A stretch of DNA of 64,000 nucleotides from the NCBI RefSeq assembly GCF_013393385.1, contig NZ_AP023239.1, forward strand, positions 1,550,001 through 1,614,000. Reading direction: 5' to 3'. The notes beneath the pieces are model-generated. The model had not been told where the DNA came from and searched no databases. It saw nothing but the letters and a program-made list of their open reading frames with translations. Positions 49,494 through 62,186 of this stretch are shown piece after piece; positions within the stretch are counted from its first letter, which is position 1, and each line of letters starts with the position of its first letter. This stretch comes from Paenibacillus sp. URB8-2. Lineage in GTDB: Bacteria; Bacillota; Bacilli; Paenibacillales; Paenibacillaceae. The translations under genes were made by a program, and so were the position numbers.

Positions 49494-49613
49494 GCATTCG
49501 AAATTTGATTGTTCTGACTTTTTTCAGCGGCCTCCGGATGCGGGAGGTCCTTTTTTCAAATTCATCAACATGATTGCAATGGACAATAGAGGAGTCGTTG
49601 GTAGGTGCAGAAA

Positions 49614-50354
49614 ATGAACGGAACACAAACGCTCAGTCGCGCGCTGGATATCCTGTTCGCCTTGGCGGAAGCAGGCGATACGCTTACGGTCAGCGAGATT
49701 GCCGAGAAGGTATCGATACCGGAGAGCACCACGTACCGGTTTCTCCAGACGCTGGAGCAGAACGGCATAGTAGAGAGAAGGGGGAGAAGCCGAATCGCCC
49801 TTGGTTTGCGGATTCTCGATTTGGCCCGGAGTCTCAACCTGCAGTTTCAACGGGACCTGCTGCCCCTGGCGCTGCCGATTATGGAGGAGCTGACGGAGAA
49901 GGTGCAGGAGACGTCAGTGCTGTTCGTGCGGACCGGCAATAATGCCGTGTGCATCCAGAATGTCAAAAGCAACAGCCTGATCCAGTTCTCCATCGAGAAT
50001 GGACGGATTTTACCGCTGCATTTGGGCGCTTCAGGCAAATGTATTCTTGCTTTTGAGAGCGGCAAGGTCATTGAGCGGATTTTTCAGACCATAGAAGACG
50101 CGGGGGACAGAGCGCGCCTGGAAGCGGAGCTTGACGCTGCACGGGCTCAGAATTATATTATCACAAAGGGCGAGGTGGACCCCGATGTGTTCGCCGTCGC
50201 CGTCCCGATTACGGACGGCCACGGACAGGCGGTAGCCAGTCTGTCCGTGGCCGGTCCAAGCTTCCGCTGCAACCCGGAGCGGGAGGGCTTTATCACTGAA
50301 GCGGTTAAACATGCTGCGGCCGAATTATCGCGGCGAATGGGGGCTGGACATTAA
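49614..50354 (+). CDS. IclR-family regulator of the ergothioneine-type catabolic cluster
   Basis: A 246-residue regulator with an N-terminal winged helix (about residues 5-65; LTVSEIAEKVSIPESTTYRFLQTLEQNGIV) and a C-terminal IclR effector domain (about 75-245; LHLGASGKCILAFE, then NYIITKGEVDPDVFAVAVPI). ATG 49614 is used, with GTG 49605 as alternative after GAGGAG. It precedes the quaternary-amine transporter and catabolic genes on the same strand, with a strong promoter between, so it is the likely local regulator. The effector may be a pathway acid such as a thiourocanate-like compound; this is inference. Confidence 0.85.
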   Translation: MNGTQTLSRALDILFALAEAGDTLTVSEIAEKVSIPESTTYRFLQTLEQNGIVERRGRSRIALGLRILDLARSLNLQFQRDLLPLALPIMEELTEKVQETSVLFVRTGNNAVCIQNVKSNSLIQFSIENGRILPLHLGASGKCILAFESGKVIERIFQTIEDAGDRARLEAELDAARAQNYIITKGEVDPDVFAVAVPITDGHGQAVASLSVAGPSFRCNPEREGFITEAVKHAAAELSRRMGAGH

Positions 50355-50390
50355 TTTTTGAAATTCCGATAAAAATACTAGAATTAATGG

Positions 50391-50420
50391 TTGACAAAAT
50401 AAGGGCGTCAATAATAATAT
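50391..50420 (+). promoter_or_regulatory. Promoter of the transporter and catabolic genes
   Basis: TTGACA (50391-50396) and TAATAT (50415-50420) with an 18-base spacer lie 37 bases after the iclR stop and about 270 bases before the permease gene. The leader between is AT-rich at first and holds one small reading frame. Confidence 0.65.
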
Positions 50421-50567
50421 TGAATTGTGGAGTTTGATTATCATATGTTAATAAATAATGCTTGATTTGAGGTGTATCACAAGCACTTAAGGTGTTTGTG
50501 ATTTATCTTCACCCTAATTCATATTAAATTGATTTGAATACTACATATTTGTGAGGTGTTGCACGGC

Positions 50568-50675
50568 ATGAAGTTTATCTTACATATTCGCGTGAAAATC
50601 CCGGGAACCGAGCGATGTCGACGCTCCAACATTCAAGTACAAGCGAAGCCGGCTGCTATCGCCATTTTATTTTGA
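50568..50675 (+). CDS. Possible leader peptide, 35 residues
   Basis: ATG 50568 follows GTGAGGTG by nine bases and opens MKFILHIRVKIPGTERCRRS, ending AIAILF. The stop is 17 bases before the permease start, so translation could be coupled. It resembles no known family and may be chance. Confidence 0.3.
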   Translation: MKFILHIRVKIPGTERCRRSNIQVQAKPAAIAILF

Positions 50676-50691
50676 AGGGCGGTGATCCTGA

Positions 50692-51333
50692 TTGATTGAT
50701 CGGATGCTCGAATATCTGTCCAAGAACCACGACGTCTATTTTGAAGCCGTACTGACGCACATCGGCATCAGTATTGCGGTTGTGTTGATTGGAATATTGA
50801 TAGCCGTTCCTTTAGGGGTATTGTGCGCAAAGTTTTTGAAGCTGTCCCAGCCGGTGCAAGGACTGTTTAACATCCTCCGTCTGATTCCGAGTCTTGCGAT
50901 TCTGATTGTGATTATGCCGGTGCTCGGAACAGGGCTTGCTCCCGCAGTTTTTGCCTTGACGCTGCTGGCTTTTCCGGCAATTTTGATTAACACAAGCATT
51001 GGCTTCACAGGAATCAGCCCCTCGGTTATCGAGGCGGCCAAAGGCATGGGGATGAGCCCGCGGAGGATTTTGTTCACGGTTGAATTTCCGCTTGCCTTTC
51101 CTATGATCATCACGGGAATAAGAACGGCTGCCGTGGAAGTGATTGCGAGTGCGACATTGGCCGCTTACATCGGTTCCGGCGGTCTTGGCGAATTAATCAT
51201 CATCGGACTCAGTCTGCCGAGCACAGCCATTTTACTCGTCGGGGGGGTGTCGGTAGCTATACTATCCATTGCCGCGGATGTGATTCTATCCATTACCCAG
51301 AAGAGACTTACGAAATATTTGTGGGTTAACTGA
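50692..51333 (+). CDS. Quaternary-amine ABC permease, OpuCB/EgtU type
   Basis: A 213-residue permease with about six membrane segments, of the glycine betaine/carnitine/choline family. Typical motifs are FNILRLIPSLAILIV, the coupling segment IEAAKGMGMSPRRILFTVE with Phe-Pro-Leu following, and AAYIGSGGLGE. The start is TTG 50692, five bases after GGTGAT. It is the first gene of the transporter, whose second permease lies after the ATPase. Unlike the single-chain EgtU, the binding domain here is a separate lipoprotein. Confidence 0.88.
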   Translation: MIDRMLEYLSKNHDVYFEAVLTHIGISIAVVLIGILIAVPLGVLCAKFLKLSQPVQGLFNILRLIPSLAILIVIMPVLGTGLAPAVFALTLLAFPAILINTSIGFTGISPSVIEAAKGMGMSPRRILFTVEFPLAFPMIITGIRTAAVEVIASATLAAYIGSGGLGELIIIGLSLPSTAILLVGGVSVAILSIAADVILSITQKRLTKYLWVN

Positions 51334-51334
51334 G

Positions 51335-51369
51335 AGGAAGGTTGGAAGGTTGGAAAGGTTGGAAGGTTT
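51335..51369 (+). repeat. Short tandem repeat GGTTGGAA
   Basis: About four copies of GGAAGGTT/GGTTGGAAA between the permease stop and the binding-protein gene. Such repeats can vary in number and change spacing. It lies too far from the start (50 bases) to be the ribosome site. Confidence 0.6.
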
Positions 51370-51417
51370 ACCAGGCAGATATTATATATAAATTTTTTAT
51401 TTGGGGAGAGAAAACAT

Positions 51418-52350
51418 ATGAAAAAATCCTTTAAGTCCATACTCAGCATCTCGTTGCTAACCATCGTCGTACTGTCCACCTTGCTCTCACTCACTGGCTG
51501 CTCAAAAGAAAGCGCAAGCGGCCCGGCAATTACGGTAGGCTCCAAAGATTTCACGGAGTCGCTGGTTCTTGCGGAGATTTACGCGAAGGCGCTTGAAGAG
51601 AACGGATTCTCGGTGAACAGACAATTTAATATCGGCGGGGAAGGACCTCACGCGGCGCTGCTGAAAGGCAGCATCGACTTCTACCCGGAATATACCGGAA
51701 CAGCGTTAACGGTTATTTTGAAGGAACCGGCATTGTTTGACGCCAAAGAAGTATACGACAAGGTTTCTGCCGAATATAAAGACAAGTTTAAGCTTGTCCT
51801 GCTAGACCAGGCCAACATCAATGACTCGCAAGGTCTTGTCATCACCAAGAAAGCTTCGGATGAATTCGGCATCAAGACGATTTCCGATCTGCAGAAGAAT
51901 GCCGACAAAATCAGATATGCCTCCAACGGTTCGTTTGATGAACGCGAGGATGGCCTTATCGGTTTGAGAAAAGTGTATGGAGAGTTCAACTTCAAATCCT
52001 CAAAGGTATATGACGACGGCATCAAGTATCAGGTGCTTAAAAATGACGAGGCCGATCTGGCCGTAGCGTACACGACAGAGGGCTCGCTGGTCGATCCGCA
52101 GTTCGTTGTGCTGGATGATGACAAACACTTGTGGCCTCCTTATTATGTGGCGCCGGTTGTCAGAGAGAACGTAGTAAAGGATTCGCCGAAGGTGGCGAAT
52201 ATACTGAACGCCGTGTCGGCAAAGCTTGACAACCCTACGATTATCAAGCTCAACGCCGCCGTCGATATTGACAAAAAAGAGTATGAAGAAGTGGCGGACG
52301 ACTATTTCGAGACCATCAAGGCTGATGTGGAAGCGGCAGCAGGCAAATAA
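51418..52350 (+). CDS. Quaternary-amine binding lipoprotein (OpuBC/EgtU-like)
   Basis: A 310-residue lipoprotein (lipobox SLTGCSK) of the OpuAC/ProX family. The mature part starts ITVGSKDFTESLVLAEIYAK, the family signature, followed by GEGPHAALLKGSIDFYPEYTG and a C-terminal lobe ending about residue 310. Relatives bind betaine, choline, carnitine or, in EgtU, ergothioneine through an aromatic cage. Neighbouring genes for an ergothionase-like lyase make ergothioneine or a conjugate the best candidate ligand here. The start 51418 follows GGGGAGAG. Ligand is inferred from context. Confidence 0.88.
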   Translation: MKKSFKSILSISLLTIVVLSTLLSLTGCSKESASGPAITVGSKDFTESLVLAEIYAKALEENGFSVNRQFNIGGEGPHAALLKGSIDFYPEYTGTALTVILKEPALFDAKEVYDKVSAEYKDKFKLVLLDQANINDSQGLVITKKASDEFGIKTISDLQKNADKIRYASNGSFDEREDGLIGLRKVYGEFNFKSSKVYDDGIKYQVLKNDEADLAVAYTTEGSLVDPQFVVLDDDKHLWPPYYVAPVVRENVVKDSPKVANILNAVSAKLDNPTIIKLNAAVDIDKKEYEEVADDYFETIKADVEAAAGK

Positions 52351-52370
52351 GATTACTAACCAAAAAAGAA

Positions 52371-52411
52371 ATGAAAACCACGTATCGATTGGGTAGTGGT
52401 TTTCATTTTTT
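52371..52411 (+). terminator. Strong terminator inside the transporter gene set
   Basis: ATGAAAACCAC (52371-52381) and GTGGTTTTCAT (52396-52406) form a perfect 11-base stem followed by six T residues. It lies between the binding-protein and ATPase genes, so downstream genes need readthrough or their own promoter. Confidence 0.88.
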
Positions 52412-52452
52412 CTTGGCGATTATGACGGTTATGTGAAGAGGGGTTGATATCG

Positions 52453-53487
52453 GTGAGCAAGACAGCGCTTGAATTTAAAAATATAAGAAAAAGGTTCTCC
52501 CATACGGAGACTGACGCCGTTTCCGATGTCAGCATTACCGTAGATGAAGGTGATTTTGTCACTATACTCGGGACATCCGGCTCCGGGAAAACCACGCTGT
52601 TAAAAATGGTCAACCGGATCTACGAAAGCACTTCGGGCGACATCTACTTCTATGGTGAAAATATTAAAAAGCTGAAAGTGGAGGACTACCGGAGAAAAAT
52701 CGGCTATGTTATCCAGCAAATCGGGCTGTTCCCGCATATGACAGTAGCGGACAACATCGCTACAGTGCCCAAAATTCTTCGCTGGAGCAAGGAGAGAATC
52801 AATGCCCGCGTGGAAGAACTGCTTGAACTGGTAGGGTTGCCGGGCGAAAGCTACCGGAAGAGGTACCCTTCGCAGCTCTCTGGCGGGCAGCAGCAGAGGA
52901 TCGGACTGGCGCGGGCAATGGCCGCTGATCCTCAGGTCATGCTGATGGATGAGCCGTTCGGCGCGATCGATGCGATCACAAGACAGAATCTGCAGGATGA
53001 GCTGATCCGCATTCAGAAAAAACTGAATAAAACGATACTTTTTGTCACTCATGATATTCATGAAGCCTTCAAGCTCGGCAACAAAGTCATCATTATGGAC
53101 CAGGGGGAAGTCCAGCAGTATGATACGCCCTTCAATATTCTTTTTCACCCTGCCAATGAATTTGTTGCGCAATTAGTAGCATCTGAGAATATTATCAACC
53201 GGCTCAAGATTCTGAAAGCTGAAACCGCCGTGCAGCCATTAACCCGGACCCCGGATGATACGGATATCTATATCGGCAAGGATGAGTTTCTCGACAGTGT
53301 GCTGTCAAAGTTTTTTGAAAGTGGCACGAAAACGATCATTGTGACGGATGCGGACGGCAGGCCGGTCGGCGAAATCGCCTGGGATCAGTTAAACGGGCTG
53401 CTGCATTCAAAAGATGACGGGACGCAAACCGGCAGCCAAAACCGGATCGGTGAGAAGGTGAACATTCATGCTCCAATCCATAGCTGA
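52453..53487 (+). CDS. Quaternary-amine ABC ATPase, OpuCA/EgtV-like
   Basis: A 344-residue ATPase. Walker A is GTSGSGKTT (about residue 37), the Q-loop VIQQIGLFPHM, the signature LSGGQQQRIGLARAM, Walker B VMLMDEPFGAID and the H-loop VTHDIHEA. After about residue 240 a CBS-like C-terminal region follows (IIVTDADGRPVGEIAW), as in OpuCA, where it senses ionic state. GTG 52453 is used, 10 bases after AGGGG; a TTG at 52444 is too near that site. It overlaps the next permease gene by 20 bases. Confidence 0.9.
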   Translation: MSKTALEFKNIRKRFSHTETDAVSDVSITVDEGDFVTILGTSGSGKTTLLKMVNRIYESTSGDIYFYGENIKKLKVEDYRRKIGYVIQQIGLFPHMTVADNIATVPKILRWSKERINARVEELLELVGLPGESYRKRYPSQLSGGQQQRIGLARAMAADPQVMLMDEPFGAIDAITRQNLQDELIRIQKKLNKTILFVTHDIHEAFKLGNKVIIMDQGEVQQYDTPFNILFHPANEFVAQLVASENIINRLKILKAETAVQPLTRTPDDTDIYIGKDEFLDSVLSKFFESGTKTIIVTDADGRPVGEIAWDQLNGLLHSKDDGTQTGSQNRIGEKVNIHAPIHS

Positions 53488-54175
53488 TTTTCTGGCCTAC
53501 TTCGCCAAATATTATGACAAAATGCTGTCCATGACGCTTGAGCACCTGCAAATCGTTACGCTCGTCCTGCTTATTTCGATCATAATCGCCGTGCCGCTCA
53601 GCCTTGCTCTATATCATTCGCACAAGCTGTCAACGATTGTACTGGCCATACTCGGAGCGCTGTACGCCATTCCAAGCCTCGCCTTTTTTGCGATCCTTAT
53701 CCCGCTTTGCGGATTGGGTATGCCTACCGCCGTTACTGTACTGGTCGTCTATACCCAATTTATTTTGGTGAGAAATATTTTGGCCGGTTTTAAATCGGTC
53801 GATCCGTTCTTGCTGGAAGCCGGCCGGGGTATGGGGCTTAGCGCCACGCAGCTATTTTTCAGAGTGCAACTGCCGATCGCCATGCCTGCCTTGCTCGGCG
53901 GTCTCAGGCTGGCGGTCATTTCCTCCATCGGAATGGCGACGATCGCGGCAACGATTGGAGCGGGAGGTTTGGGTACGCTGCTGTTTGACGGACTCCGCAT
54001 GAATTTTGCATTGAAGATCGTATGGGGAACGGTATTGGCCTCGGCTCTGTCCCTGATCGCCAACCGAATTCTTTTATTCTTTGAAAAACGGGCGATGAAA
54101 CGCGCGCGCGGCGAACTGCATCAGCCGAAAACAGGGCAGCCGTCCAAAAATCTTCGCCAAGCTCTTGAAGAGTAA
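53468..54175 (+). CDS. Quaternary-amine ABC permease, OpuCD type
   Basis: A 235-residue permease with six membrane segments, second channel subunit of the transporter. Motifs are ALYAIPSLAFFAILIP, the coupling region LEAGRGMGLSATQLFFRVQ with Leu-Pro, and ATIGAGGLGTLLFDGL. A basic tail of about 30 residues ends the protein. Its start overlaps the ATPase gene by 20 bases. It is followed, 16 bases after its stop, by the GH4 glycosidase gene, which ties that enzyme to the transporter. Confidence 0.9.
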   Translation: MLQSIADFLAYFAKYYDKMLSMTLEHLQIVTLVLLISIIIAVPLSLALYHSHKLSTIVLAILGALYAIPSLAFFAILIPLCGLGMPTAVTVLVVYTQFILVRNILAGFKSVDPFLLEAGRGMGLSATQLFFRVQLPIAMPALLGGLRLAVISSIGMATIAATIGAGGLGTLLFDGLRMNFALKIVWGTVLASALSLIANRILLFFEKRAMKRARGELHQPKTGQPSKNLRQALEE

Positions 54176-54191
54176 AGGGGGGCGTGTTGAG

Positions 54192-55520
54192 GTGAAGAGC
54201 ATGCTGTATCACAAGCAATACTTGAAATTCGTATTTATAGGCGCGGGAAGTTCTTTTTTCACCATGCGGCTTGTCGGCGACATTCTCAGCGAACCGAGTT
54301 TGCAGAGCGGGCATCTGGCCCTTGTCGATATCCATGAAGGCCTGCTGAATGAAACGAAGACTGCTGTGGAAAATCTGGTCGGATACGCAGGCGGGAAATT
54401 TACGGTGTCCGCGCATACCGAGGTTAAAGCCGCACTAAACGGAGCCGACTTCGTATTCTTCACTTTCGCGACCGGCGGATATGAGCGGTGGAAGAACGAT
54501 ATAGAAATCTGTACAAGTCACGGCGTGCTGCAGTCGGTCGGGGATACCATCGGTCCCGGCGGCATTATCCGGACTCTTCGCACCATTCCTGCCGTGCTTG
54601 ACATCGCCGGCGAAATGGAGAAGAGATGTCCCGGGGCATGGATTATCAATTATTCCAACCCCGAAGGCGCCGTCTGTCTTGCGCTGCAAAAATATACAAA
54701 AATCAAATCGTTCGGGCTGTGTCACGGCACTCCCGATACTGCCCGCTGGATTGCGGAGAAAGTCTTTCAGGTGGACCCGGCAAGACTGCATTTCCGCGCC
54801 GCCGGCATCAATCATCTTACATGGTTTACGAATCTTACGCTTGATGGCGTCGATGTCTATCCGCAGCTTATGGAAGAGCTCCACAGGTCAGGCATGGACA
54901 AGGAGGAGCCGATCTCGGCGGAGCTGTTTCGCACGTATGGCCTTTATCCTGCGCCCGGGGACCGGCATGTCGGCGAGTTTTTTCCGTTTTTTCTTAAGGA
55001 TCAGGTTCTGTTGGATCACGATTACGCCTGGAAGAACAATGACTTTGCCGCAATTGACGGCTGGCGCAGCAATCTTCGCCAATTATTCGATGAAGTGCGT
55101 GTGCGGAACACCGGCTATGAGAAATTTCTGGAAGGCTCGGGAGAAACTGCGACTCACTTCATCCGGGCGCTTGTAACCGGTGAGACCGCCTCAGAGATGG
55201 TCAATGTCATCAATAGGGGATACATCGAGAATATCTCGAACGGAGTCATCGTCGAGCTGCCCGCATTCATTGACAGCTTCGGCCTGCATCCGCAAAAAAT
55301 TGGAGCCCTTCCGGACGGCATCGCCCACAAGTGCGACACGCTGGGGTGCGAGTATCTGCTCGCGGTGGACGCTGCTGTCACGTGCGATTATTCCAAAGCG
55401 CTTCAGGCGATGTATCTTGACCCGCTCGTCTCCAATTGCAATTATCCAGACCGCCTGTTGAAAGACCTTGTCAAAGCTAACCTGGATGTTCTTCCGGAAA
55501 GCTGGGGCAACTTTTTATGA
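54192..55520 (+). CDS. GH4 glycosidase (NAD- and Mn-dependent)
   Basis: A 442-residue cytoplasmic enzyme of glycoside hydrolase family 4. The NAD site FVFIGAGSSFFT is at the N-terminus. The substrate/metal motifs are IINYSNPEGAV, the metal-binding Cys-His in FGLCHGTPD, and AGINHLTWF. Family members oxidise C3 of a sugar and eliminate the aglycone, so they accept alpha- and beta-, O- and even S-glycosides. GTG 54192 or ATG 54201 is the start. The placement directly after a betaine transporter is unusual; the sugar and aglycone are unknown. Confidence 0.85.
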   Translation: MKSMLYHKQYLKFVFIGAGSSFFTMRLVGDILSEPSLQSGHLALVDIHEGLLNETKTAVENLVGYAGGKFTVSAHTEVKAALNGADFVFFTFATGGYERWKNDIEICTSHGVLQSVGDTIGPGGIIRTLRTIPAVLDIAGEMEKRCPGAWIINYSNPEGAVCLALQKYTKIKSFGLCHGTPDTARWIAEKVFQVDPARLHFRAAGINHLTWFTNLTLDGVDVYPQLMEELHRSGMDKEEPISAELFRTYGLYPAPGDRHVGEFFPFFLKDQVLLDHDYAWKNNDFAAIDGWRSNLRQLFDEVRVRNTGYEKFLEGSGETATHFIRALVTGETASEMVNVINRGYIENISNGVIVELPAFIDSFGLHPQKIGALPDGIAHKCDTLGCEYLLAVDAAVTCDYSKALQAMYLDPLVSNCNYPDRLLKDLVKANLDVLPESWGNFL

Positions 55521-56455
55521 ACAAGATTCCCCTGATAATGGATGTCGATACCGGCACAGACGATGCGATTGCCATCATCTGCGCGCTGATGAGCACGGAG
55601 GTGCTGGATATAAAAGCATTCACCGCCGTTGCCGGAAATGTCGGAGTCGATCTGACGAGCAGCAATACCCTAAATATTGTGGATTATCTTGGCTTTGACA
55701 TCCCTGTTGCGGTCGGCGCGGCTAAGCCGCTGAACAAGGATTTGCATACAGCGATCAGTCATGGCGCAACCGGTCTCGGCGATGTGATTGTGCCGAAATC
55801 GGACAGGGCATTTTACGAAAGAGATGCGGCTGACACCATCTATGAGCATGCCGTTGCCATGCAAGGCGAGCTTGAAATTGTGGCCGTCGGCCCGCTTACC
55901 AATATTGCCGAGGCCATCATTCGTTACCCGGATATTGTCCGCTTAATCAAACGGATTACGATTATGGGCGGCGCACTCCGGGGCGGCAACATGACCCCGG
56001 CTTCCGAGTTCAATCTCTATGTTGATCCTGACGCTGGGAAAATAGTGTTCGAGGCCGGCATCCCTCTGGTGATGGTCGGGCTTGACGTGACGCTGAAACC
56101 GCAGCTTCCGCTTGCTGTTGTTGAAACCGTCAAGCGGCTGGACAACAAATTTGCGAACTTAGCTGCCCGGATTTTTGACTTTATGCTGCGCCGCTGCGAG
56201 CAGTTCGGATTTGATCCGCCGAATGTCCATGATGCCATCGCATTGGCCAGCCTGATCGTTCCCCGGCTCGTTACTCTGAACAAATATGTAATGACGGTAG
56301 AAACCGAAGGGACGGTAACCCGCGGCATGACCGTTGCCGACTTCAACAACGTTACGGGAAAAGAACCGAATGTGAGCGTTGCGGTTGATGTGGACTGCAA
56401 TCTGTTCTGGGACTGGATGACGGGCAAATTCTTAAGTGCGGAGAGAGATGGCTAG
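55517..56455 (+). CDS. Inosine-uridine-type nucleoside hydrolase
   Basis: A 312-residue enzyme. The calcium site DVDTGTDDA lies at residues 9-17, followed by TAVAGNVGVD, VAVGPLTNIAEAI, IMGGALRGGNMTPASEFNLY and the later NVHDAIA, all hallmarks of nucleoside hydrolases that split N-glycosidic ribosyl bonds. It overlaps the GH4 gene by four bases, so the two are translationally coupled. In this betaine-catabolic setting it may remove ribose from an imidazole nitrogen; that is inference. Plain purine or pyrimidine nucleoside salvage is the alternative. Confidence 0.9.
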   Translation: MNKIPLIMDVDTGTDDAIAIICALMSTEVLDIKAFTAVAGNVGVDLTSSNTLNIVDYLGFDIPVAVGAAKPLNKDLHTAISHGATGLGDVIVPKSDRAFYERDAADTIYEHAVAMQGELEIVAVGPLTNIAEAIIRYPDIVRLIKRITIMGGALRGGNMTPASEFNLYVDPDAGKIVFEAGIPLVMVGLDVTLKPQLPLAVVETVKRLDNKFANLAARIFDFMLRRCEQFGFDPPNVHDAIALASLIVPRLVTLNKYVMTVETEGTVTRGMTVADFNNVTGKEPNVSVAVDVDCNLFWDWMTGKFLSAERDG

Positions 56456-56508
56456 CCAAGGACAAAGCGGGATCAAGATTAGAAATATGCACCCGGAGGA
56501 GGACAGGT

Positions 56509-57515
56509 ATGCCGCTGCAACAGAATTTGTTCGAAACAAGCTGGAGCATGGATATCGCGGATGTCGAGCCTTTAAGGCTCGGTTTTATCGGCGCCGGCGA
56601 GATGGCTTCTTTTGCCGTATACCCGGCCTTGCATTTCTCGGAAATCGCCCTGCAGGCGGTTTGTGATCTGGATGAACAACGGGCAAAACGGATTGCCGAT
56701 AAATTTTGTCCGGGACACTGGTACACGGACTATCGCAAGATGTGGGAAAAAGAAGACATAGAAGCGGTTGCCATCCAGCTCCAGCCCGGAGAAACAAGGC
56801 TCCGTATCGCGCATGAAGCACTGGAAGCGGGTTACCATGTAATTATTCCAAAGCCGCCAACGCGAAGCTACCGTGAAACGGTGGAGCTTGCAGAGTCGGC
56901 CGAAAAATCCGGAAAACGGGTTATGGTGAACTTTGAAAGCCGCTTTAGTTATGGCGTGAGGATGGCCCAAAAAGTGATGGCCCAGCCTGATTTTGGACAA
57001 CTGACGCAAGCGTCTTTCTCTTTTTGCACGGGTTCATACAAGGACCGGCTTGTCTATCGGCATGATACTCCCTATAAAGACGGCGTTCACGCCTATTTGC
57101 TCGATTTTGCCCCGCATCATCTGGATCTTGCCCGCTATCTTGGCGGCGAAGTGAACAAAATGGCGCTGTTTCACCACGAATGGGGAGGGGAAAGCGCAAA
57201 CGCATTGGCTGTTGAATTTGAAAACGGTTCGGTTGGCACGATGCAGCTCTGCAGCAACCGGATCTGGTGGAGAAATTACGATCGCATTGAGCTTACAGGG
57301 CAAGGGGAATATATCATTCTTGACGGGTTGTGGAACGTAAAGCATTATACGGCAGACCAGAATACGTTTACGGAAAACTACCGGGATGAGCGAAGCGGGG
57401 AATTAACTGGTGACCTGTTGCAAGCATCCAGGATTGCGCCGGGACCATGGAGCTGTATCAAGCCATTTATGATGCGGTTGCGTCCGGAAAAGACGGTGTT
57501 ATTTTCAAAAGGTAA
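56509..57515 (+). pseudogene. Gfo/Idh/MocA-family oxidoreductase, frameshifted near its end
   Basis: An NAD(P)-dependent sugar dehydrogenase-type protein of about 335 residues. The Rossmann motif LGFIGAGEMASFAVYPAL lies at about residues 24-41, with the catalytic-loop IIPKPPTRSYRE and the later HHLDLARYLGGEV. Near 57443 the frame breaks: reading on gives an implausible tail running into the next gene, whereas one base out of register the sequence gives MELYQAIYDAVASGKDGVIF and a TAA at 57513-57515, the expected C-terminus. A lost G in a GGG run explains it. Start 56509 has GGAGGACAGGT before it. Confidence 0.82.
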
Positions 57516-57553
57516 TGCCAAAGAGAGATTGAAACAGAAAGGATGGGATAGCC

Positions 57554-59218
57554 GTGAGCAGAATTACGGCGGCAAGAGGAGGAGAACTTCGATGCAAGGG
57601 CTGGCGGCAGGAAGCGCTGCTGCGAATGCTGGAGAATGTGCTGGAGAACGGCGAGAACCAGAAGGAGCTGATTGTCTATGCTTCATTGGGCAAAGCGGCG
57701 CGGAACTGGCCGTCTTACAGAGCCATCGTGGACACGCTGAAGAATCTGGAAGAGGATGAGACGCTGGTCATTCAATCGGGCAAACCGATCGGCGTCTTCC
57801 GCACGCATCGCCAGGCTCCGCTCGTTGTGATGGCGAACTGCAATTTGGTGGGCCGATGGGCGACCAGCGAGAACTTCTATGAATTGCAGGACAAGGGCCT
57901 GATTATCTGGGGAGGGCTGACCGCAGCCGCTTGGCAGTACATCGGTTCACAGGGCGTTATCCAGGGAACGTATGAAATCTTCCAGAGCATTGCGCGCCTG
58001 CATTTCGGCGGAAGCTTGCAAGGCCGTTTTATTCTGACCGCCGGCCTGGGCGGCATGGGCGGGTCGCAGCCGCTGGCCGGAACGATGGCGGGCGCAGCTA
58101 TTCTATGCGTGGAGGTCGCGGAGGACCGGATCGACAAGCGCATTGCCGCAGGTTACTTGCAGCGCAAGACCGCAAGCCTGGACGAAGCGCTGGCCTGGAT
58201 CGAAGAGGCGAAAGGCAGCGGAGAGGCGCTGTCGGTCGGCCTGCTCGGCAATGCGGCCGATGTCTATCCCGAGCTGCTGGCGCGCGGGGTGCTGCCGGAT
58301 ATTGTGACGGACCAGACCTCCGCGCATGATTTGCTCTACGGGTATATTCCGAGAGGCTATACCCCCGCCACTGCGGCGGAGGCCCGCAAGACGGACCCGG
58401 CTGGACTTCAGGAAGCCGCCGGAACGTCGATTGCGGTCGAGGTCGGAGCGATGCTGCAATTCAAGGCGCTCGGCTCGGTCGTCTTTGATAACGGCAACAA
58501 CATCCGCTCCCAGGCGGTGAAGTACGGTGTCGCCAACGCTTTTGACATCGACATCTTCACGGAAGCCTTTCTGCGGCCCCTGTTCGCCCGGGCCATCGGC
58601 CCGTTCCGCTGGATCGCCCTCAGCGGCGACCCGCAGGATATTCGGACCATTGACGAATATATTTTGCGCGAATTCAGCGACAACGAGATCGTGTCGAACT
58701 GGATCAAGCTGGCGAATGTTCACGTACCGGTCGAAGGACTGCCTGCCCGGATCGGCTGGTTCGGCCACCGGGACCGCAGCAGGCTGGCGCTGGCCGTGAA
58801 TGACATGGTCCGCGAAGGCAAGCTGAGCGGTCCGGTGGCGTTCTCGCGCGACCATCTGGATGCGGCCGCCATGGCCCACCCGAACATCATGACCGAGCGG
58901 ATGAAGGACGGCAGCGACGCGATTGCCGACTGGCCGCTGCTGAACGCGATGCTGAACTGCTCCTCCATGGCCGATCTGGTGGCCATTCATTCCGGCGGCG
59001 GAGGTTATGCGGGGTACATGACAAGCGCCGGCGTCACCATTGTCGCCGACGGAAAGGCGGAGAGTGACCTGCGCCTGCGGACTGCCCTCGATAACGACAC
59101 CGGACTGGGCGTGCTTCGGTATGCGGATGCCGGATACGAGGAGTCGTTAGACGAGGTGGAACGCAAGGGAATTGCAAGAATTGATACCGGCAGGCACGAA
59201 GAGATTGTGGCGGACTAA
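57554..59218 (+). CDS. Urocanase homologue, probable thiourocanate hydratase
   Basis: A 554-residue member of the urocanate hydratase family. The start ITAARGGELRCKGWRQEALL and the NAD site AGLGGMGGSQPLAG are conserved. The urocanase signature normally reads QGLPARICW; here it is EGLPARIGW, so the signature Cys is Gly401. Thiourocanate hydratase, step two of ergothioneine breakdown, is a known urocanase relative, and a Paenibacillus enzyme has been characterised. With an ergothionase-like lyase and a DUF917 desulfurase behind it, that role fits better than histidine use. GTG 57554 follows AAAGGATGG. Confidence 0.82.
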   Translation: MSRITAARGGELRCKGWRQEALLRMLENVLENGENQKELIVYASLGKAARNWPSYRAIVDTLKNLEEDETLVIQSGKPIGVFRTHRQAPLVVMANCNLVGRWATSENFYELQDKGLIIWGGLTAAAWQYIGSQGVIQGTYEIFQSIARLHFGGSLQGRFILTAGLGGMGGSQPLAGTMAGAAILCVEVAEDRIDKRIAAGYLQRKTASLDEALAWIEEAKGSGEALSVGLLGNAADVYPELLARGVLPDIVTDQTSAHDLLYGYIPRGYTPATAAEARKTDPAGLQEAAGTSIAVEVGAMLQFKALGSVVFDNGNNIRSQAVKYGVANAFDIDIFTEAFLRPLFARAIGPFRWIALSGDPQDIRTIDEYILREFSDNEIVSNWIKLANVHVPVEGLPARIGWFGHRDRSRLALAVNDMVREGKLSGPVAFSRDHLDAAAMAHPNIMTERMKDGSDAIADWPLLNAMLNCSSMADLVAIHSGGGGYAGYMTSAGVTIVADGKAESDLRLRTALDNDTGLGVLRYADAGYEESLDEVERKGIARIDTGRHEEIVAD

Positions 59219-59357
59219 AATTTGTACCGGCCGATATTTGGCCGACGGATAAGTGTGCAAAAAATAACGGCGGCGAGCCGGAAAAGTGCTGGAAATAGGC
59301 GAATGAATGCCTTTCATGCAGCCGCGCCCGGCTTGCCGCAAGAGGAGACGGGGATAA
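59219..59357. other. Intergenic gap between hydratase and desulfurase genes
   Basis: 139 bases with a short GGCCGATATTTGGCC hairpin near 59228 and a GAGGAGACGGGG ribosome region before the next start. No promoter was recognised. Confidence 0.3.
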
Positions 59358-60464
59358 ATGAGAGAGTTAACGAGAGACGATGTAAACGCCGCGGTTAGAG
59401 GCGGTTCCGTATTTGCCAGCGGCGGGGGCGGCTGGGTGGACCACGGTCTGGATATCGGTCACGCTGCGCTCAGCGTAGGCCGTCCGAAGCTGGTGTCGGT
59501 CGATGAGCTGCCGGAAGACGCCGTTATTCTGACCTGCACGGCTATCGGCGCACCGGCGGGCCGCGACTGGCAGATGCTCGGCAAAGATTATATCAAGGCC
59601 GTACAGCTCGTCATCGACCACTATGACGGCAAAATTGCCGGGGTCATGACGCCGCAGAACGGAATGTCGAGCACGATCAACGGCTGGCTGCCGGCAGCCG
59701 CGCTCGGCCTTGTTGTTGTGGACGCCACCGGGGACATCCGCGCCCATCCCACCGGCAAAATGGGCTCGCTCGGCCTCGCCTCGTCCATTGATTACGAGAC
59801 GGTTCAGGCGGTGGCCGGCGGCAAGCCGGAGCTGGGCAGCTACATCGAGCTGGTTGTCAAAGGGACCCCGGCGCGGACCTCGAACATTCTGCGTACCGCA
59901 TCGGACATGGCCGGCGGCTTCATCGCCGCGGCGCGCCATCCGCTCCCGGCGAAATACATCAAGGAGCATGCCGCGCTGTGCGGCATCTCGATTGCGATTG
60001 AGCTGGGCCGGGCGATCCTGGCGGCCGAGCCGGACGGTGCGGAAGCGGTGCTTGACACGATCGTACGCCATACAAAGGGCAGAATTGTCGGCAAAGGTAC
60101 AGTGACGAAGAAAAATGTGCACTATTCCGGCGCTTTTGATATCGGCACTATTGAAGTGGAAATCCCGGGGAGTTCTCTGACCCTGCACGTGATGAACGAA
60201 TATATGGCGGTGGACGACCGGTCGGGCACACGGCTGACCACCTTCCCCGATGTCATTACGAGCATCGATTTGGCCACAGGCCGTCCGGTCAGTGTAGGGG
60301 ATCTTAAGGAAGGGCAGGAGATTGCCGTATTTGCCATCGACAAGTCCAATGTTCCACTCAGTTCCAGCGTCAAGGACCCGAGCGTCTATCCCGAAGTGGA
60401 AGAGGTGCTGGGGATCGACCTCCAGAGCTACGCCTTCGGCAAGGAGAAGCAGGTTCATGCCTGA
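59358..60464 (+). CDS. DUF917 protein, probable thiohydantoin desulfurase
   Basis: A 368-residue protein of the DUF917 / S-Me-THD family (PF06032). Characteristic stretches are VNAAVRGGSVFASGGGGWVD at the N-terminus, LTCTAIGAPAGRDWQML and VVDATGDIRAHPTGKMGSLG. One member catalyses loss of sulfide from the thiohydantoin intermediate of ergothioneine breakdown; the family is named after S-methyl thiohydantoin desulfurase. Located between the hydratase and the lyase gene, it fits step three of that route. It overlaps the next gene by eight bases. The alternative is a hydantoinase-like activity. Confidence 0.82.
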   Translation: MRELTRDDVNAAVRGGSVFASGGGGWVDHGLDIGHAALSVGRPKLVSVDELPEDAVILTCTAIGAPAGRDWQMLGKDYIKAVQLVIDHYDGKIAGVMTPQNGMSSTINGWLPAAALGLVVVDATGDIRAHPTGKMGSLGLASSIDYETVQAVAGGKPELGSYIELVVKGTPARTSNILRTASDMAGGFIAAARHPLPAKYIKEHAALCGISIAIELGRAILAAEPDGAEAVLDTIVRHTKGRIVGKGTVTKKNVHYSGAFDIGTIEVEIPGSSLTLHVMNEYMAVDDRSGTRLTTFPDVITSIDLATGRPVSVGDLKEGQEIAVFAIDKSNVPLSSSVKDPSVYPEVEEVLGIDLQSYAFGKEKQVHA

Positions 60465-61998
60465 GAGAAGCCCGCTATCCGGCAGCGCACTGGTGCTGGA
60501 CGGAACGGGTCTGAGCGTTGCCGATGTGGACAGCGTTGCCCGGGGCCACCGGGAGGTTGTAATCGCGCCGAGCGCCTGGGAACGGCTCGAGAAGGCGCGG
60601 CAGGTTATCTTCGAGCTGGCGGAGGAAGGACTGCCCGTATACGGGTTGAACCGTGGCGTCGGCTGGAATAAGGATAAGATCATTTCTCCCGGATTGTATG
60701 AATATTACAACCGCAGCCTGCTGTTGTCCCACAGCGCGGGAATCAAGCCCGAGGCCCCGGAGGAGGTGGTGCGGGCGGCGATGCTCGCCCGGCTGAACGG
60801 TCTGCTCGCTGGAGTCACTGGTTCGCAGCCGGAAATCGCCGCGCGCTACGCCGATTTCCTCAACCTGGGATTTCACCCCGTTCTGCCGCTGCGCGGGTCA
60901 GTGGGCGCTGCGGATATCACCCTGATCTCCCACCTGGGTCTGGCGATGATCGGGGAAGGGGAGGCGGAGATTGGCGGACGCCGCCTGCCGGCCAAGCAGG
61001 CGCTGGCGGAGCTTGGACTGGCTCCGCTGAGGCTGGGGCCGAAGGACGGGCTGGCCATCGTCAGCTCCAATGCGCTCTCTGCCGGAAACGGCGCGCTGGC
61101 GCTGCATGATCTGGCCGGATTGCTGGAAACCGCCGATACGGTGTACGCCCTGTCGCTGGAGGCGATTCGCGGCAATGTCAGCCCGCTGGACGAAGCCGTT
61201 CACCGCAAGCGCCCATTCCGTGGGCAGCTTGCGAGCGCGGCGGATGTCCGCAAGTATCTTGCCGGAAGCAGCCTGTGGGAGGCGTATAATCCGGACTCCC
61301 TGCAGGACCCGCTAAGCTTCCGCGATGCCTGCCAGATCCACGGCGCGGCCCGTGATGCGCTCGCCTATACCCGGGAACTGCTGGAAATTCATCTGAACAG
61401 CCCGGACGACAATCCGTGCGTGCTGGCGGAAGAGCGGCGCATATTATCCAACGCCAATTTTGATCCCGTCGTCTGGACGCTCGGCTTCGAGATGCTGGGG
61501 AGCGCCCTGCATCATGTCTCCAAAAGCTCCTGCTATCGCATCCTCAAGCTGGGCGATCCGGCCTTTACCGGCCTCAGCCGCTTTCTGACTCCGGATGCGG
61601 AACGCTCAATCGGCTTCGGCACCGTCCAGAAGACGGCCTCTTCGCTGGATGCGGAAATCCGCCATCTGAGCAACCCGGCCTCCGCCGATTATATGTCGCT
61701 GGCGGGAGATATCGAGGACCACGGGACCAACGCGCCGTTTGTCGTCTCCAAGACAAGGGAGATCATTGACCGGCTGACCTATATGCTGGCGATTGAAGCC
61801 ATTCACGCCGCCCAGGCCATCGACCTTCGCGGCGGGGTCAAGCTTGGACGGGGAACGGAGGCGGCCTACCGTCTGCTCCGTTCCGCCGTGCCTTTCCTGG
61901 ATGCCGACCGCATCCAGACGGTGGATTTCGAGGCGGCGTACCGGCTGATCAAGGACGGGAAGTGGCTTACATCGGTGCGGCAGGCTTTAAGCGAGTGA
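60457..61998 (+). CDS. MIO-less aromatic amino acid lyase homologue, probable ergothionase
   Basis: A 513-residue member of the histidine/phenylalanine ammonia-lyase superfamily. ATG 60457 lies 10 bases after AAGGAG; the frame continues upstream only as an overlap. True lyases have GSVGASGDLAPL, whose Ala-Ser-Gly makes the MIO cofactor; here the sequence is GSVGAADITLIS (Ala151-Ala152-Asp153), so no MIO can form. Other active-site regions remain: YGLNRGVGW, SSNALSAGNG, QDPLSFRDACQIHG, SPDDNPCV and IEDHGTNAPF. Ergothionase, which eliminates trimethylamine from ergothioneine to give thiourocanate, is such a MIO-free homologue. Neighbours agree. Confidence 0.82.
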   Translation: MPERSPLSGSALVLDGTGLSVADVDSVARGHREVVIAPSAWERLEKARQVIFELAEEGLPVYGLNRGVGWNKDKIISPGLYEYYNRSLLLSHSAGIKPEAPEEVVRAAMLARLNGLLAGVTGSQPEIAARYADFLNLGFHPVLPLRGSVGAADITLISHLGLAMIGEGEAEIGGRRLPAKQALAELGLAPLRLGPKDGLAIVSSNALSAGNGALALHDLAGLLETADTVYALSLEAIRGNVSPLDEAVHRKRPFRGQLASAADVRKYLAGSSLWEAYNPDSLQDPLSFRDACQIHGAARDALAYTRELLEIHLNSPDDNPCVLAEERRILSNANFDPVVWTLGFEMLGSALHHVSKSSCYRILKLGDPAFTGLSRFLTPDAERSIGFGTVQKTASSLDAEIRHLSNPASADYMSLAGDIEDHGTNAPFVVSKTREIIDRLTYMLAIEAIHAAQAIDLRGGVKLGRGTEAAYRLLRSAVPFLDADRIQTVDFEAAYRLIKDGKWLTSVRQALSE

Positions 61999-62156: not shown

Positions 62157-62186
62157 AATAGCTCAAGCGATAAGCTTGAGCTTATT
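62157..62186 (+). terminator. Hairpin after the catabolic cluster
   Basis: GCTCAAGC (62161-62168) pairs with GCTTGAGC (62174-62181) around a short loop, with flanking AATA/TTATT. It is about 160 bases past the lyase stop. Confidence 0.55.

Follow-up and report, generated by a model that had tools for sequence, protein, structure and literature searches.

In the genome of Paenibacillus sp. URB8-2, a stretch of 64,000 nucleotides (contig NZ_AP023239.1, positions 1,550,001 to 1,614,000; hereafter the window) carries an operon whose assignment to the breakdown of ergothioneine (ET) is well supported by sequence comparison. The operon also encodes an ATP-binding cassette (ABC) transporter, a glycoside hydrolase of family 4 (GH4) and a nucleoside hydrolase (NH). 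We tentatively propose, with slightly less than even confidence, that these provide an accessory and partly decaying step that strips ribose, and perhaps another sugar, from imidazole betaines before trimethylamine is eliminated. All of the genes named here lie on the plus strand of the window between positions 49605 and 61998:

49605..50354, plus strand: IclR-family regulator (Pfam IclR_C and HTH_IclR).
50692..51333, plus strand: ABC permease A (PF00528), 82% identical to that of Sporolactobacillus.
51418..52350, plus strand: substrate-binding protein of OpuAC/OsmF type (PF04069), with a Ser aligned with EgtU Glu375.
52444..53487, plus strand: ProV-like ABC ATPase (PF00005; TIGR01186 at 304 bits, below the cut-off of 326.6).
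53468..54175, plus strand: ABC permease B (PF00528).
54201..55520, plus strand: GH4 glycosidase, intact, with a CHGT motif (PF02056 at 164.8 bits and PF11975 at 147.8 bits, over cut-off).
55517..56455, plus strand: nucleoside hydrolase of IU type, active-site motifs intact (PF01156 at 281 bits, over cut-off).
56509..57515, plus strand: Gfo/Idh/MocA oxidoreductase (PF01408), its 3′ end broken by comparison with homologues.
57554..59218, plus strand: thiourocanate hydratase, a urocanase homologue (NF058530 at 1007.2 bits against a cut-off of 930).
59358..60464, plus strand: thiohydantoin desulfurase of the DUF917/S-Me-THD family (NF058529 at 604.7 bits against a cut-off of 440).
60457..61998, plus strand: ergothionase, a trimethylamine-lyase of the histidine ammonia-lyase (HAL) fold without the 4-methylideneimidazole-5-one (MIO) cofactor (best solved match 6s7j/6s7q, E 1.2e-148).

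All three enzymes of known ET breakdown, ergothionase, thiourocanate hydratase and thiohydantoin desulfurase, are encoded here. The hydratase and desulfurase exceed the cut-offs of their specific models, and among solved structures the lyase is nearest to ergothionase (6s7j, 499 bits, against 222 bits for the best histidine ammonia-lyase). It lacks the Ala-Ser-Gly motif of MIO, reading GSVGAADIT where GSVGASGD is expected, and is predicted to remove trimethylamine from ergothioneine. An earlier note, made from the letters of this DNA, had called the cluster ergothioneine-type, and these results bear it out. Compared with the known pathway, the window operon adds GH4, NH and the broken Gfo/Idh/MocA gene. 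It differs from many other ET loci in that hydantoinase and carbamoylase were not found in it by tblastn; the protein of the window genome that comes closest to the Cohnella hydantoinase shows 39% identity.

For comparison, 392 genomes of the order Paenibacillales were searched with NF058530; 28 of them scored over its cut-off, giving 30 loci. All were taken, as stretches of 19.5 kb (four shortened by contig ends to 12.7, 16.0, 16.5 and 18.7 kb), and gene presence was scored by tblastn. Ergothionase is present in 28 of the 30 (the exceptions are L051 and L063), full-length NH in six, and GH4 and the oxidoreductase in one each, an oxidoreductase match in L051 being unrelated at 24% identity. 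The NH loci are the window’s own, four of the same genus (L054, L055, L057 and L058; 92-97% identity) and L036 of Cohnella pontilimi (62%), while in L052, a fifth relative, the NH is reduced to its last 30 codons. We refer to the window strain together with L052, L054, L055, L057 and L058 as the clade. On these counts, with one remnant beside the six full-length copies of NH, the idea that sugar genes are a general part of ET breakdown was rejected.

The linkage of NH to clusters of imidazole-betaine type is solid. At a threshold of E ≤ 1e-75, NH orthologs occur in 7 of 392 genomes of the order, in 4 of 295 of the window’s family (one of them new) and in 1 of 104 of a further family (genome G224, already counted). 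These samples overlap and hold eight distinct genomes, in all eight of which the NH stands amid lyase and hydratase genes, six times in ET clusters and twice in Hut-type operons. The family of Sporolactobacillus adds an NH in 1 of 26 genomes (E ≤ 1e-60), and plasmid records gave none at that threshold; lyase homologues, all below 60% identity, were seen in 122 plasmid records. In the clade the NH is under purifying selection, with a dN/dS of 0.12 over five members, beside 0.10-0.12 for the transporter and regulator genes in a comparison that leaves out permease B. The Pfam domain and active-site motifs of the window NH are those of the IU-type enzymes RihA, RihC and UriH (the motif DxDxGxDDA is present as DVDTGTDDA), and it is predicted to be an N-ribosidase. 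Unlike those enzymes it is tied to imidazole-betaine-type clusters, and it matches four NCBI models of NH, in each case at a score under the cut-off.

A tree of the 119 best NH homologues places the window protein with Sporolactobacillus (local support 0.82) and Cohnella beside the NHs of the two Hut-type operons (support 1.0). There are thus two NH lineages, both found in imidazole-betaine-type clusters in the minority of members whose context is known, most of the tree being metagenomic. Co-location was scored among the homologues listed by equal length of contig (>5 kb), with 120 shifted lengths as the control; shorter matches, 1582 and 2506, were left out of the counts. GH4 and NH agreed in both length and source on three contigs (control mean 0.22, maximum 2), namely that of S. 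laevolacticus and the metagenomic contigs 13365 and 64771. For NH with the oxidoreductase there were also three matching contigs (8286, 9204 and 95495; control mean 0.125, maximum 1), with the source agreeing in two and differing for 9204. No report of NH linked to ET clusters was found in the open-licence literature, including the accessible part of PMC13405746, which is weak evidence of absence; PMC11794154 has ergothioneine in its reference list only.

The two Hut-type operons with an NH probably come from P. eucommiae (L138:4438-14275) and P. montanisoli (L147:2382-10597). Each encodes an NH, a HutH-like lyase, HutU, HutI and a HutG-like protein, the L147 proteins being 74-84% identical to their L138 counterparts. 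In L138, HutU reaches 997 bits (cut-off 375) and HutI 518 (298), and the HutG-like protein falls just under its cut-off (220 against 229). These three products are what the P. eucommiae NH operon has in common with the Hut operon. The two operons differ from the Hut operon in that both HutH-like lyases are without the ASGD of the MIO motif, reading GSVGY-LTHMAH, and in that the operon of L138 includes a transporter of quaternary-amine/betaine type. Aligned to 6v6h, the HutH-like lyase has a Tyr opposite the cofactor. Most simply, a HutH that lacks MIO and is encoded together with a betaine-type importer would remove trimethylamine from hercynine; possibly it is a dead enzyme. The two operons perhaps serve hercynine breakdown. 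In L138 a divergent ribokinase gene (318.6 bits, cut-off 299.65) lies ∼1.6 kb from the NH, past a regulator gene named by eye, and in L147 the HutG-like gene is followed at a distance of 24 bp by a non-orthologous GH4 (∼30% identity) and then by a sugar-kinase gene.

The window’s GH4 is intact and full length, with both Pfam domains of the family, and belongs to an unusual subfamily. Its start is likelier ATG 54201 than TTG 54165, the former being where the stored homologue and most aligned homologues begin. Full-length homologues reach 86% identity, and Cys174 and His205, which we take to be metal ligands, are invariant in 22 aligned homologues; the CHGx motif might hint at a uronidase, a reading that was considered and not adopted. 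Among the matches listed for 100 genomes of the genus (E ≤ 1e-60), nothing besides the protein itself exceeds 36% identity. L058 keeps a 70-bp GH4 fragment (residues 371-393, 91% identical) between permease B and NH, the gene is missing from the other relatives with differing breakpoints, and the tree of binding proteins puts the window strain on a branch of its own, outside the group of its five relatives. For these reasons GH4 was most likely present in the common ancestor of the window strain and the five relatives, and the pattern in the clade reads as loss rather than insertion. Several independent losses were considered and are not required, as the same gene core is absent in all five and one loss with later erosion fits equally well.

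A scan of named genomes gave 39 GH4 loci, and neighbours were examined for the 21 most similar (L106-L123, 18 more distant loci, were left out). ET genes stand beside GH4 at one of the 21, in Sporolactobacillus laevolacticus DSM 442 (L085), where the order is ergothionase, thiourocanate hydratase, thiohydantoin desulfurase, IclR, permease A, binding protein, ATPase, permease B, GH4 and NH. Identity to the window is 73-82% for the transporter proteins, 78% for GH4 and 72% for NH. Transporter identities between the window and ET clusters of other Paenibacillales genera are mostly ∼30-58%, below the Sporolactobacillus values, and the transporter, GH4 and NH therefore appear to travel together, beside ET genes in two arrangements. 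Across the genomes of 20 GH4 loci (L099 being left out as the same assembly as L093), only Sporolactobacillus has an NH and a lyase match of 50% identity; the other seven lyase matches are at 32-35%. A role for GH4 as a general ET enzyme was rejected on this evidence, together with the 20 close loci, some on short contigs, that show no ET genes. Its linkage to ET genes is real but rare.

The earlier note had held that sugar-free clusters in close relatives would mark a chance insertion. L052, with only its NH stub, has such a cluster in form, and the four relatives that keep NH and lack GH4 and the oxidoreductase come part of the way. For GH4 the claim fails, as the L058 fragment and the same GH4-NH block in Sporolactobacillus speak for loss. 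Chance insertion of all three sugar genes was likewise rejected for NH and GH4, and not for the oxidoreductase.

The oxidoreductase stands apart, and the three sugar genes are not one unit. Its homologues match in frame to ∼57414, after which ∼16 codons are missing and the last ∼33 residues follow in another frame, with a stop at 57515. No intact reading frame runs through its C-terminal domain, and the break may be genuine or an error of sequencing. Because the 3′ end is broken, the 206-bp overlap of its open reading frame with that of the hydratase is an artefact. The gene is in no relative’s cluster, being missing from all five at nearly the same junction, and in the window it is flanked by an 8-bp repeat, AGAGAGAT; deletion in the relatives fits this repeat as well as insertion here.

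The binding protein provides a view of the possible ligand. By score, its solved relatives are the precursors of the acetylcholine and nicotine sensors and ProX, which are nearer, and EgtU. It shares the quaternary-amine importer superfamily with the EgtU importer, as described in the accessible part of PMC9732360, and keeps K242, T296, R379, Y419 and Y443. It differs from EgtU in being the product of a separate gene and in having Phe at G244, Tyr at F293, Gln at Y341 and Ser at E375, so that in the motif-based alignment the EgtU marks Gly244, Phe293 and Glu375 are absent. In SpEgtU, Glu375 bonds an imidazole nitrogen of ET, and the E375Q mutation lowers Ka from ∼2e7 to 4e4, a several-hundred-fold loss of affinity (PMC9732360, accessible part). 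Among 38 binding proteins, the residue aligned with Glu375 is Glu in 28, Asp in two, Ser in seven and Ile in one. The acid is missing in all eight proteins from ET clusters with NH (seven) or the NH remnant (L052), and in none of 29 from NH-less loci. These eight form one clade of the tree (support 0.993), a pattern that fits a ligand with a substituted imidazole nitrogen. Loss of the acid in several independent events is not supported, the eight proteins being a single clade.

A second kind of ET cluster was seen in 11 loci (L037, L038, L042, L044, L045, L050, L053, L056, L059, L061 and L062), with another binding protein (29-33% identical) and a gene for a luciferase-like monooxygenase, named by eye; hydantoinase was not found by tblastn in eight of the 11. 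At L040 and L041 the two kinds of binding protein occur within a single region, the first 5′ of the hydratase and the second after carbamoylase-like genes. L051 holds thiourocanate hydratase, the transporter, hydantoinase and carbamoylase, with no desulfurase or ergothionase within its 19.5 kb.

Taken together, the proposed route would begin with import by the transporter of an imidazole betaine, possibly with ribose on an imidazole nitrogen. GH4 might take off a further, outer sugar by NAD-dependent oxidation and elimination; that sugar could sit on the ribose or on the sulfur, and its position is a guess. The NH would then cut the ribose in the cytoplasm, and the freed betaine would pass to the MIO-less lyase for loss of trimethylamine and on to the hydratase and desulfurase. 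The sequences show the family assignments, the gene order, the conservation and the loss of GH4; we infer what the substrate is, which sugar comes off first and where the sugars are attached. The NH step is placed before the lyase because the ET and hercynine pathways, if the Hut-type operons do act on hercynine, share only the histidine-betaine substrate ahead of elimination. In the clade the step would be decaying, with GH4 gone in five relatives, an NH stub in one and a broken oxidoreductase in the window. The earlier note had read the sugar genes as the mark of a glycosylated or ribosylated substrate. That reading stands for the NH, more weakly for GH4 and not for the broken oxidoreductase, which no relative’s cluster contains; a putative ribosylated substrate is better supported than a glycosylated one. 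GH4 enzymes also cleave S-glycosides (PMC10628242, accessible part), and the biosynthesis of lincomycin includes S-glycosylation of ET (PMC4360819, accessible part), so an S-glycoside is possible in the ET clusters; it cannot account for the Hut-type operons.

Several results weigh against this proposal. ET breakdown needs no sugar gene: NH and its remnant are both missing from 23 of the 30 Paenibacillales ET loci, and GH4 is in just one of the 30. A class-wide sample, in which 10 of 398 genomes qualified, three already in the set, added seven further loci, and tblastn found neither NH nor GH4 in any of the seven. ET genes were not found at 20 of the 21 close GH4 loci, several of which are ordinary sugar loci and some of which lie on short contigs. 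GH4 and the oxidoreductase share two contigs where 1.1 are expected, so there is no excess. The EgtU positions were assigned from conserved motifs and the spacing between residues rather than from the EgtU sequence itself. The acid-less proteins, being a single clade, may reflect one evolutionary event. The P. eucommiae binding protein keeps the Glu although an NH adjoins it. All 31 binding proteins scored at the position of the invariant Gly244, that of P. eucommiae included, have Phe there, so by the published mark none of the 31 is an EgtU, and free ET is only a possible ligand for them. The L138 lyase passes the NCBI hutH cut-off (586 against 539), leaving the name hercynine lyase to depend on the lost motif and the transporter. 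Finally, no ribosylated ET or hercynine was found in the open-licence literature, which is weak evidence of absence. To our knowledge none has been described.

The genes could also have come together by ordinary accretion. A sugar and nucleoside block would then hitch-hike with a betaine transporter of broad specificity; the nucleosides and glycosides on which NH and GH4 act would have nothing to do with ET, whose genes would be mere neighbours. The rarity of GH4 in ET loci and its loss in the relatives, the broken oxidoreductase and the several GH4 relatives in sugar loci would all be expected. Such a history is nonetheless unlikely given that the NH accompanies lyase or hydratase genes in all eight genomes (the clade, Cohnella and the two Hut-type operons) and in Sporolactobacillus, and that the association persists as the gene order around it varies. 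If the NH instead served metabolite repair, free ET or hercynine would be imported, the NH would clear N-ribosides that arise intracellularly from the imidazole compounds, through base exchange or as side products of phosphorylases, and GH4 would have a separate job. This agrees with purifying selection on the NH in four relatives without GH4 and with its presence in both the ET clusters and the Hut-type operons, but leaves unexplained the transporter-GH4-NH block common to Sporolactobacillus and the distinct clade of binding proteins; we regard it as quite unlikely. Very improbable, in our estimate, is an NH turned to a new use, the hydrolysis of a late intermediate at a ring or amide bond. 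The clade clusters do lack the hydantoinase and carbamoylase of many other ET loci, yet in Cohnella the NH occurs alongside both enzymes, no hydantoin step is expected for the Hut-type operons, and the active-site motifs are canonical.

A broader form of the sugar-removal proposal, which we consider somewhat unlikely, is that nature holds an undescribed class of N-ribosylated and further glycosylated imidazole betaines, nucleoside-like versions of ET and hercynine, which dedicated importers, NHs and GH4s of some Bacilli would open before elimination. NHs of like kind would also serve hercynine breakdown along a parallel line, whose MIO-less HutH would have evolved independently. If true, ribosylated or glycosylated ET and hercynine would occur in nature at levels that made an entry step worth evolving for bacteria, and the measuring and tracing of ET and hercynine in soil, fungi and the diet would change. 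One NH group linked to two kinds of imidazole-betaine cluster provides a short list of candidate enzymes and substrates, and the MIO-less HutH operons point to a possible hercynine trimethylamine-lyase that arose separately from ergothionase.

The layout of the locus is compact, as the earlier note had seen: the genes share one strand and several overlap, ATPase and permease B by 20 bp, GH4 and NH by 4 bp, and desulfurase and lyase by 8 bp if ATG 60457 is the start of the lyase. The IclR gene is a sensible left border, as the genes 5′ of it are for a TetR regulator and a zinc-type dehydrogenase. IclR homologues occur in 22 of the 30 ET loci (51-96% identity, the window’s own copy being 100%). 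Candidate regulatory sites are:

50391..50418, plus strand: promoter-like site TTGACA-16-AATAAT, identical in sequence in the gap between IclR and permease A in 6/6 clade members.
50476..50502, no strand: palindrome with 12-bp arms, a candidate operator, kept in 5/6 clade members and damaged in L052.
62160..62182, plus strand: terminator-like hairpin 3′ of the lyase, from a hairpin scan that found 13 such hairpins across the region against 14.4 expected, which is no excess.

Rfam and tRNA scans of the window gave no matches. Past the right end of the window, ∼2.3 kb 3′ of the lyase, lies a transposase-like gene (L064:15827-16861, named by eye), which may indicate an unstable flank.

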